Assembly (NCBI RefSeq): GCF_009696275.1
Contig: NZ_VUMI01000024.1
Span: 1 to 64,000 of the forward strand
Direction: 5' to 3'
DNA: 64,000 nucleotides
Source: Eisenbergiella porci
GTDB lineage: Bacteria > Bacillota > Clostridia > Lachnospirales > Lachnospiraceae
The position numbers were made by a program, and so were the translations under genes. The notes under the pieces are model-generated. The model saw only the letters and a program-made list of their open reading frames with translations. It ran no database searches and was not told the origin of the DNA. Position 1 is the stretch's first letter. Every line of letters starts with the position of its first letter. Positions 22,021 through 40,750 of this stretch are shown here, in pieces.

Positions 22021-22240
22021 GGGGGGAGGACAGCTGCGCTTATCCTGAAAAAAGTATAGTTTCCGGCAGCCGGGAGAAAATAAAAGGACTTATATTTAGT
22101 ATATAATTTGCCTATCCATAGCATAATGCGGACGACTATAACAAGCATCCGTCCCATCATACAGCAATAGCTAAAACAGAATGCCATAATATTTTTTTAT
22201 CCGCATTACTAAAACGCAGCCAAACAGTACCGGGCAGCGG

Positions 22241-22482
22241 GTCTGAGGGTTCGGGGGCAGGGGACAGGGCGGCGGGGATTGCGGGGGGCGGCGGGAGGGA
22301 GTTTTTTATGGAACCTTTTCAGTCCATGGAGATGAGACTTAAAAATTATGGAAGGCTTTCCTGACATAATTTTTCGCCCAAGGCTCATCGCAATGCCCGG
22401 ACTGACTGGTTCCATAAAAAACTCCCTCCCGCCGCCCCCCGCAATCCCCGCCGCCCTGTCCCCTGCCCCCGAACCCTCAGAC
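22241..22482. repeat. 75-bp perfect inverted repeat between sigE and sigG
   Basis: The left arm 22241-22315 and the right arm 22408-22482 are exact reverse complements over 75 bp, with a 92-nt spacer. Pairing continues inside: CAGTCC (22320-22325) with GGACTG (22399-22404), GATGAG (22331-22336) with CTCATC (22384-22389), AAAAATTATG (22341-22350) with CATAATTTTT (22365-22374). The arms are very GC-rich, with G runs on the plus strand of the left arm. No ORF, transposase or target-site duplication is seen. The rest of the 563-bp gap (22021-22240 and 22483-22583) shows only a TATAAT-like hexamer upstream of sigG. Confidence 0.97.
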
Positions 22483-22583
22483 GCCCTTCCCCCCCTTCCA
22501 TATTTTGTATTTTTTGGATGGTATAATTGGCAGGAATTGTGAGAATTCTCTTTAGTAGAAAATGAGAGCAGGAGGATTCGGCA

Positions 22584-35975: not shown

Positions 35976-36084
35976 CCGTGCGGCCTTGCGCTGCAGGGAT
36001 TGCGCCCATACTGCTTCCCGCCTCCCATTTCGGGCCGGCCGGCAGCAGTATGGGGCGAAATCCCCACAGCACAAGGCCGCACGG
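35976..36084 (-). repeat. 109-nt foldback element downstream of the SH3-protein gene
   Basis: CCGTGCGGCCTTG (35976-35988) pairs with CAAGGCCGCACGG (36072-36084). Inner segments, including CGCCCATACTGCT (36003-36015) with 36044-36057, extend the stem with small bulges. Three of the few arm differences (C/T, C/T, A/G) would be G-U or U-G pairs in a minus-strand RNA and mismatches in a plus-strand RNA. This favours a minus-strand structured transcript, or a foldback repeat. Strand is inferred from this. Confidence 0.75.
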
Positions 36085-36167
36085 CGCGTAACGTAACTAA
36101 TTAAATAAGAAACCGTCATAATTATAAAGAAGAATAAAGAAAATAAAAATGAATAATAAAAATCTCC

Positions 36168-36204
36168 CCGGAAATACTTACTAAAAAAAGTATTTCCGGT
36201 TTTT
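36168..36204 (+). terminator. Terminator between the two foldback elements
   Basis: CCGGAAATACTT (36168-36179) pairs perfectly with AAGTATTTCCGG (36188-36199), then five T residues. It could end the SH3-protein mRNA on the plus strand. Confidence 0.85.
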
Positions 36205-36245
36205 CATTTTTTAAAAATATATTTTTTTTCAATAACTACGGCTCA

Positions 36246-36600
36246 GCTCCGTGCTGTCCGGGGGTTTTTCCGCCGCTCCGCTATCCGGTCCTGCTCCGGC
36301 GCTGGCGGGTGTTTTCCGGTGCATGAGAAAAAATGGAGATGTTTCTTACTGCCCTGCCCTGCCAGGAACCGGCTGCTTTTAGCGGCTTGTCTGACGAACA
36401 TAAGCATCTAAATACGCCGTGCCGCAAGGCGCCGGCGTATTTAGACGCTTATGTGAGGAGTTCAGCCGCGTTAGCCGATTCCTGACAGGACAGAACAGTT
36501 AGAAACATCCCATTTTTGAAATGCACCAGAAAACACCCGCCAGCGCCGGAGTAGAACCGGATAACGGAGCCAGCGGAAAAACCCCCGGACAGCACGGAGC
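36246..36600 (-). repeat. 355-nt giant foldback element
   Basis: Arms 36246-36374 and 36473-36600 (about 129 nt each) are reverse complements with one indel and about a dozen substitutions; the outermost 28 bp are identical. Inside, GCGGCT/AGCCGC, ACATAAGC/GCTTATGT and a 13-bp perfect stem TCTAAATACGCCG/CGGCGTATTTAGA (36407-36419, 36433-36445) lead to an apical GCC-GCAA-GGC on the plus strand. No ORF and no transposase. With 35976-36084 and the terminator it fills the 671-bp gap 35957-36627. Minus strand is suggested by the G-U bias described under findings. Confidence 0.9.
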
Positions 36601-36627
36601 GTACACAACCGGGAAGGAAGGCGGAGT

Positions 36628-37059
36628 ATGAGAAGTGATGATGCGGCTATATACAGGGAAATCCAAAAAAATGCAGAAATGGGAATCAAAGCGATAGAAG
36701 CTGTCAGCCCCAAGCTGACGGATGATGCCTTTGCCCTGCAGCTAAGCAGGCAGGAACTGAAGTTTTCAGAAATCAGGGATAAAGCCAGGCATGAGATGCT
36801 GGAGGGGCGTGCGGAGGAGTACCGCAGCAGCGGTGTCACTGATTTGATGCTTAAGGGCGGGATACAGGCCAATACGCTTTTGAATACCAGCACCAGCCAT
36901 ATTGCGGAACTGATGATTCAGGGCAGTAACAGGGGGCTGACAAGCATGTGGAAGGCATTGAACCACTATGAAAATGCCGGAAATGAGAGCACGGAGCTTG
37001 CCCGCGAACTCATGGATTTTGAGGAAAAAACCATTGAAAAGCTGAAAAAGTATCTATAA
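36628..37059 (+). CDS. Conserved-looking helical protein of unknown function
   Basis: 143 aa, predicted almost all alpha-helical and soluble, with no signal peptide or membrane helix. Sequence features: IYREIQKNAEMGIKAIEAVS near the start, QLSRQELKFSEIRDKAR, and a Met/Gly/Asn-rich middle (ELMIQGSNRGLTSMWKAL). I do not recognise the family. The ATG is preceded by GGAAGGCGGAG. It begins 27 bp after the giant foldback element and is followed by the gdhA promoter; no operon partner is obvious. Confidence 0.75.
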   Translation: MRSDDAAIYREIQKNAEMGIKAIEAVSPKLTDDAFALQLSRQELKFSEIRDKARHEMLEGRAEEYRSSGVTDLMLKGGIQANTLLNTSTSHIAELMIQGSNRGLTSMWKALNHYENAGNESTELARELMDFEEKTIEKLKKYL

Positions 37060-37105
37060 ACAGGTGCTTTTTAGCAAATTTCGTCAATTTAACGTAATAA
37101 AGTAC

Positions 37106-40664: not shown

Positions 40665-40750
40665 GTAACTGTCCGCACCCCGCCCGGGTCCCTGCCGTCG
40701 CCGCCTTGTGCCTGCGGGAACCCGGGAGGAGGAGGACAGTTACTTTTTTT
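40665..40750. repeat. GTAACTGTCCGC foldback, second copy, with T-run
   Basis: GTAACTGTCC (40665-40674) pairs with GGACAGTTAC (40734-40743), inner CCCGGGT (40683-40689) with ACCCGGG (40720-40726), then seven T. It starts with the same 12-mer as the foldback at 24702. It may serve as a second terminator, or belong to a small dispersed repeat family. Confidence 0.6.

Follow-up and report, generated by a model that had tools for sequence, protein, structure and literature searches.

The closest described systems are the non-coding MITEs and REP sequences of bacteria. Among the former, ERIC elements are described as co-transcribed with their neighbours and as having an orientation-dependent effect on the upstream mRNA (PMC2229807, PMC3733652); REP/BIME sequences, tagged GTAG/CGTC, are given as lying mostly behind genes and between convergent genes and as presumably transcribed (PMC3733652). 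The locus analysed here is a foldback in a stretch of 64,000 nucleotides (the window) of an Eisenbergiella genome, and is probably an old copy of a genus-restricted, non-coding, MITE-like mobile palindrome with copied arms and a preferred orientation. The family is of a MITE-like kind already known, in an unusual variant: its members are short and non-coding and have many dispersed copies, present or absent between relatives, as MITEs do.

The 355-nt foldback described in an earlier note on this DNA is present in the sequence, with its outermost 28 nt 100% complementary and a self-identity of 80% over the full length (gaps included). Its MFE was -271.4 kcal/mol on the plus strand and -297.2 kcal/mol on the minus strand, values reached by none of 100 dinucleotide shuffles on either strand (z of about -26 and -28). 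The earlier note had counted nine C/T, one G/A and no T/C differences between the arms, which is essentially right for the outer 129 nt: a global alignment of the first 129 nt of the left arm with the right arm gave C/T 8, G/A 1 and T/C 0. The C/T excess stood, and the count had left out transversions, five of which occur in this outer comparison together with 4 gap columns. Over the whole half, the differences were C/T 8-9, T/C 1, G/A 2, A/G 1 and 13-14 transversions (the counts vary with gap placement in the alignment), and the A/G difference claimed near 36406 is there. Read on the minus strand, the window copy alone has 10 G-U against 3 A-C (9 against 2 in a second tally), a strand imbalance that is, within a single copy, suggestive only.

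A DNA search of the window's own genome (G000) with the window element gave 40 local matches, around which 25 foldbacks of 289-489 nt were delimited; one of them (L021b) is without the core motifs and was left out of the model. The remaining foldbacks, oriented by these motifs, have a core of about 180 nt in common, and RNAalifold on 21 aligned copies gave 83 paired columns, 62 with changes on both sides. A covariance model of 187 positions (R1) was used for genome searches. In 41 genomes, R1 matched at least 61 times in G000, at least 53 times in E. tayi DSM 26961 (G001), at least 17 times in G002 and at least once in G011 (G002, G011 and G012 are other Eisenbergiella); these counts are lower bounds, as some copies match on both strands and at most the 64 best candidates were scored per genome. 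The other 37 genomes (9 of the same genus, 28 of the wider family or order) gave no R1 match among the best 64 candidates of each. Where both strands match, the better one leads by about 35-130 bits, so that the orientation of the core is clear. A genome-wide copy count, one of the checks proposed in the earlier note, gave at least 41 distinct places in G000 (39, and two in fetched stretches), at least 44 in G001 (41 fetched, three weaker places left out), at least 17 in G002 and at least one in G011.

A wide distribution of the element was rejected, since the class and family searches gave no match outside the genus: none among the best 21 candidates scored per genome in 118 family genomes outside the genus, and, with the best 6 candidates of each genome scored, none in a further 390 genomes of the class. 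When named genomes were scanned with an exact pattern, 8 places matched, four of them E. tayi elements and four without a model match. A phage or viral element was rejected as well, the window copy having no phage similarity and one exact pattern being absent from viral contigs. The Rfam gathering score was reached in the window by one tRNA elsewhere and not by the element, and on four family loci there were sub-threshold Rfam matches only. None of the six frames crosses the core without interruption in more than 23 of the 79 modelled copies. No description of this element family was found in the literature, judged by titles and the beginnings of abstracts.

Table 1 Features of the palindromic element and of its surroundings, in positions of the window.
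Feature	Position	Strand	Remarks
Whole palindromic element	36246..36600	minus (putative RNA strand)	355 nt; orientation from family core motifs
Conserved core and copy-specific apical insert	36316..36531	minus	covariance model R1: 166 bits minus, 63.8 plus
5' outer arm (RNA strand), copy-specific	36532..36600	minus	T-A pairs 18 vs A-T 1
3' outer arm (RNA strand), complement of 5' outer arm	36246..36315	minus	
Conserved loop AACTCCTC	36455..36462	minus	exact in 75/79 modelled copies
Opposing conserved loop TCGTCAGACA	36388..36397	minus	CGTCRGACA exact in 61/79
Conserved A.A mismatch	36347 and partner 36500	minus	A.A in 73/79 copies
Apical hairpin, copy-specific	36398..36454	minus	22-nt arms, 95% complementary
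Terminator-like hairpin behind SH3-domain gene	36168..36199	plus	
143-aa ORF	36628..37059	plus	0 Pfam matches at E 0.001

The window copy is antisense to both of its neighbours: on the RNA strand, its 3' end points towards the SH3-domain gene's terminator, and its 5' end is separated by 27 nt from the start of the 143-aa gene, which lies on the opposite strand. There is no stop codon in front of this copy, which sits antisense at the start of the 143-aa gene, and no sigma-70-like promoter was predicted in 36080-37100 on either strand. Transcription of the 143-aa gene from upstream would place the plus-strand complement of the element in the resulting mRNA. In 11 relatives of the genus, the model found no element around the orthologue of the 143-aa gene; the window copy, as positive control, was recovered by the same search. 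In G012 and G001, inspection by eye found the SH3-gene terminator followed, without an insert, by the ribosome-binding region of the 143-aa gene, the terminator being alike and the ATG of the 143-aa gene lying within about 60 nt. No target duplication was noticed by eye at the window copy. Other repeats of the window include a 109-nt foldback at 35976-36084, between the SH3 gene's stop codon (about 20 nt away) and its terminator, without a further copy in the four genomes searched; an inverted repeat at 40665-40743 (28-nt arms, 75% complementary); and a second palindrome at 22232-22491 (84-nt arms, 96% complementary) with relatives elsewhere in G000 (8 places) and in G001 (3) and G012 (9). The G001 and G012 matches to this second palindrome cover the centre only, and perhaps it again combines a conserved middle with copy-specific arms.

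The outer arms of most copies are dissimilar, with a mean identity of 0.45-0.52 in all bins below 85% core identity and of 0.49 between unrelated copies. Copies with closely related cores have similar arms in some cases (L098, L101, L092) and unlike arms of unequal length in another (L085/L095). Within a copy the two arms match almost perfectly: 6666 of 6859 gap-free positions are Watson-Crick (about 97%), 90 are G-U, 49 A-C and 54 other, in 77 of 82 copies (five without a symmetric self-match were left out) and with arms delimited by the self-match, which favours well-paired stretches. Captured host DNA was rejected as the source of the outer arms on a test of one arm from the 77 copies, the 152-nt arm of L085, which matches only itself and its partner in four genomes. 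In an alignment of 80 rows, 95.4% of the cells pair and 61 of 68 pairs have changes on both sides, far above shuffled and slid controls; this alignment includes one wrong-strand row (L090), which was dropped for the later counts on 79 copies.

The covariation among homologues that the earlier note proposed to look for is thus present in 61 of 68 pairs, and is largely explained by copying that affects both arms. Among the seven young G002 copies, 22 of 44 variable pairs are switches from one Watson-Crick pair to another, and the mispaired cells are G-U 13, A-C 18 and other 19. Their private changes comprise 7 Watson-Crick doubles, where independence would give 0.05, and 13 singles (3 G-U, 6 A-C, 4 other), one non-Watson-Crick double being left out of the count. 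The 21 closest pairs of G000/G001 copies (independent, at least 80% identity) have 127 Watson-Crick double against 96 single changes (44 G-U, 28 A-C, 24 other), a count that leaves out 22 non-Watson-Crick doubles and 9 changes between unpaired states. Transitions and transversions stand at 67:60 in the double changes and at 50:48 in unpaired columns. Stepwise change through G-U would favour transitions, so that doubles of which nearly half are transversions point to arm copying; together with the excess of doubles over singles, this makes most of the covariation look like arm-to-arm DNA copying. The view of the earlier note that selection on a structured RNA had left the whole arm pattern found no support, as most paired change hits both arms at once. 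Template switching, which has been proposed as a source of such patterns in RNA genes (PMC8794818), is the mechanism of arm matching that these mutation patterns suggest; gene conversion or recombination between copies could account for part of them, as could a strong selective disadvantage of unpaired intermediates. That the loops have stayed asymmetric under such copying still calls for selection on them.

The minus-strand lean, from which the earlier note had started, holds in the pooled family and fails in the G002 burst. Pooled outer arms have 90 G-U against 49 A-C (p 6e-4; 34 vs 13 copies), and the pooled core has 263 against 197 by unfitted self-alignment. In the modelled core, whose alignment is fitted to the structure and so leans to G-U, the counts are 227 against 75 (61 vs 11 copies), and 118 against 73 (p 0.0014) after removal of four G-U-rich columns. 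Apical inserts, readable in 28 of 79 copies, have 50 against 8 (17 vs 3 copies), in a tally where many non-pairs are loop positions. Taken genome by genome, the outer arms reach significance in G001 (43:19) but fall short of it in G000 (47:30, p 0.07); for the unfitted core it is G000 that reaches it (140:93) and G001 that does not (123:104, p 0.23). Balanced differences in relatives, which the earlier note had named as evidence against its claim, were found in one of three genomes, G002 (13:18). Since the asymmetry appears in the pool and not in the recent burst, the minus-strand preference is probably real and secondary. A one-sided C-to-T bias, the alternative offered in the earlier note, falls short of a full account: the RNA-strand flanks have a positive GC skew in 57 of 82 copies, and the G-U excess over A-C is firmest in these (outer arms 68:39, core 191:134), but the outer-arm lean persists in negative-skew copies (22:10, p 0.05; core 72:63, not significant), the class to which the window copy belongs. 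The flanks of G000/G001 copies (e.g. L083, L087, L091) are G-rich and C-poor on the RNA strand directly outside the stem.

The RNA strand, which is the minus strand of the window, tends to be sense to the gene in front. With ORFs called mechanically (100 aa or longer), 29 of 85 copies (8 in G000, 19 in G001, 2 in G002) have their 5' end no more than 40 nt past a sense stop codon, 20 of these at 2-13 nt; for the 3' end, the corresponding number of convergent stop codons is 4 (p 1e-5). With 5' ends so often 2-13 nt behind a stop codon, many copies are probably carried in mRNA 3' ends, as a hairpin of about 350 nt that might affect the mRNA. An element-supplied stop codon was rejected at one site, L097, where the E. 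tayi orthologue ends with the same TAG and the element is absent. All five close element pairs in G000 are tail-to-tail.

The arms themselves are polar. From 20 nt outside the core outwards, 1321 pairs are T-A (with the T in the 5' arm) and 482 are A-T, and the 5' arm is A-poor in 75 of the 76 copies without a tie. When the whole outer arm is counted, the T-A excess is found in 77 of 77 copies (53/53 and 24/24 by skew class). It peaks in the 60 nt next to the core and is weaker further out (25 vs 7 and 24 vs 14 copies). Apical inserts reverse the polarity (T-A 45 vs A-T 74), and G002 copies show little of it (144:120). G-C and C-G pairs stand at 926:712 in G000 and 701:1104 in G001, the G000 excess being one of totals only (20 vs 13 copies, without significance beyond 20 nt). 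In the treatment of PMC8794818, an excess of U-A and G-C is predicted where G-U intermediates are corrected to suit the 5' base; T-A and G-C are both in excess in G000, T-A alone in G001.

Comparison of the fetched loci of G000 and G001 gave further sites with the element in one genome only, at which the flanks are too diverged to fix the exact element ends. G002 has a recent burst of copies of about 280 nt: the nine fetched copies (from 17 places) are pairwise 83-95% identical and have common ends, and eight of them were used for direct repeats and stop codons, seven for pair counts. Among nine copies (eight from G002 and one from G011), 5 have flanking direct repeats that score at least 7, where shuffled pairings give 10%; the enrichment was not significant in G000 (6/36 vs 11.8%) or G001 (6/41 vs 12.9%). 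An exact 10-nt repeat directly abuts copy L101 of G000 at either end. Terminal inverted repeats are conserved in G002, a subset of the G000/G001 copies has another conserved tip, and the window copy shows neither. The G002 terminal motif occurs, with at most one mismatch, 113 times in G000, 76 in G002, 20 in G001 and 11 in G011 (0-3 for the reversed motif as control). Three of nine elements bounded by this motif, all in G000 and of 136-137 nt, have exact 8-nt duplications; the other six, including a full-size G002 palindrome, have no or an inexact duplication. The same terminal repeat is common to short MITEs and to an IS66-type element of G012.

IS66 elements typically begin with GTAA and make 8-nt duplications. 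In G012, a 507-aa ORF with a match to PF03050 (IS66-type transposase) lies between copies of the G002 terminal motif, and the element has the same flank of about 9 nt on both sides. IS66 as the sole mobiliser was rejected, since neither G002, the holder of the youngest copies, nor G011 has a PF03050 match. The terminal motif, at up to one mismatch, is absent from the fetched PF03050 loci of G000 and G001, and a search for a transposase with the termini of the G000/G001 copies found none; mobilisation of the window subfamily by a transposase is presumed. Six loci of G000 (L191-L195, L197) are a MITE of 136-139 nt with the terminal motif GTAACAGTTCAG, with exact 8-nt target duplications in three of the six tested (L191, L193, L194). 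Two derivatives of 75-79 nt in G002 (L187, L196) lack the core and have kept the palindromic element's ends intact, and in one of the two the flanks agree at 7 of 8 nt; the core may hence not be needed for insertion. The loci L161, L162, L165 and L171 contain, near their position 2000, solo fragments of about 34-74 nt, which open with the tip found in some palindromes and break off within the arm, and look as if the rest had been lost or never copied.

In a tree of the cores, the G000 and G001 copies fall into largely genome-specific clades beside some mixed older ones, indicating that amplification, or conversion among copies, continued after the species split; the window copy groups with the older copies L109 and L113. 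Four sites seemed occupied in both genomes, and their use as orthologous copies proving fast arm evolution was rejected: only L115/L157 are sisters in the tree (which has no printed support values), and the rest, in mostly genome-specific clades, are more likely independent insertions or converted copies.

These observations fit an element in which a conserved, strand-asymmetric core lies inside long arms. During replication the palindrome would fold back and one arm would be copied onto the other by template switching, so that point changes would reach both arms at once and the arms would drift yet stay paired; the conserved loops stay asymmetric, so something would have to select them. That the family is instead a cis-acting or free structured RNA, with selected pairing, compensatory changes by way of G-U and copies that are functional RNA loci, is improbable. 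Covariation of 61 of 68 modelled pairs, with 95.4% of cells paired and controls far lower, agrees with such a family, as do the conserved asymmetric loops, the minus-strand excess of G-U over A-C in the pooled G000/G001 copies, the apical inserts (50 vs 8) and the sense placement behind stop codons. Against this, G-U makes up just 1.3% of outer-arm positions (90/6859), doubles outnumber singles and are nearly half transversions, as in unpaired columns, the youngest copies have G-U 13 vs A-C 18, presence varies between relatives, and no Rfam gathering score was reached by the element, four copies matching below threshold only. An RNA function of the element as such is possible.

A purely mutational origin of the strand asymmetry, by C-to-T change on one strand in replication or transcription and with no role for RNA, seems unlikely, because negative-skew copies lean the same way in the outer arms (22 vs 10), the T-A polarity is equal in both skew classes, the 5' arms of G001 are C-rich rather than C-poor, and the apical inserts have such an excess of G-U; the positive skew of most flanks, the firmest G-U excess in those very copies, the non-significant core of the negative-skew copies (72 vs 63) and the C-poor flanks are nonetheless as expected from it. 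If the palindrome acted as DNA, as a cruciform or single-strand hairpin recognised by a protein in the manner of REP or attC, the asymmetric loops conserved within it would be one-strand protein contacts; near-perfect Watson-Crick arms with little G-U and the balance of G-U and A-C in young copies suit this account too, which is nevertheless a doubtful one, as the sense placement behind stop codons is hard to explain unless the target is chosen, and the two core-less G002 derivatives with intact ends suggest that the core is perhaps dispensable for insertion. For the mobile palindrome with copied arms, we offer a more specific scheme only tentatively, as probably not correct in full. In it, hairpin-primed DNA synthesis would keep rewriting the arms from the 5' arm, and the tolerance of G-U on the RNA strand would act as a filter; A and C in the 5' arm would gradually give way to G and U, so that even copies without sequence similarity would come to have A-poor 5' arms; loops that copying could erase would be held by an RNA or single-strand-DNA function at gene 3' ends; and the covariation would be mainly mutational and not compensatory selection.

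Covariation is commonly taken as proof of a functional RNA, and this family is a caution for such tests on palindromic elements. Its approximately 80 paralogous palindromes with near-saturating covariation form a natural test set for template switching versus compensatory selection. If placement at the 3' end means expression, some twenty E. tayi genes would have a hairpin of 300-450 nt behind the stop codon (19 of the 41 copies examined).

Compared with the ERIC, YPAL, NEMIS (Correia) and RUP MITEs as described in PMC2229807 and PMC3733652, the Eisenbergiella elements are likewise non-coding, dispersed, intergenic and folded into long stem-loops, with inverted-repeat ends and, in some of the young copies, target duplications. 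They differ in being longer (289-489 nt, against the 70-300 given for MITEs in PMC3733652), almost wholly palindromic, and conserved in the core alone, with copy-specific arms; the sequence comparison with these four families was made via Rfam, and otherwise they are set apart by their descriptions. With REP/BIME, in the account of PMC3733652, they share the placement behind genes, many pairs in opposite orientation and a CGTC, here in a conserved loop. REPs are given there as 20-40 nt with stems of 5-13 bp and a terminal tag, whereas our element is about ten times longer; at 355 nt and with CGTC in an internal loop, the window copy has neither the 20-40-nt palindrome nor the terminal tag of a REP. 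With the IS66-type element of G012 and the short MITEs, the G002 copies share the terminal repeat and a similar target duplication, whereas the ends of the window copy and of most copies in G000/G001 are different or cannot be recognised; this match is to an element of a relative and not of the own genome, and gives no partner for the window subfamily. The cases treated in PMC8794818 are rRNA and microRNA sequences, and the C-G direction of G001 is opposite to the prediction made there; as in its template-switch hairpins, for which simultaneous double changes and perfect stems are predicted, our elements have both, with a T-A excess in both genomes.
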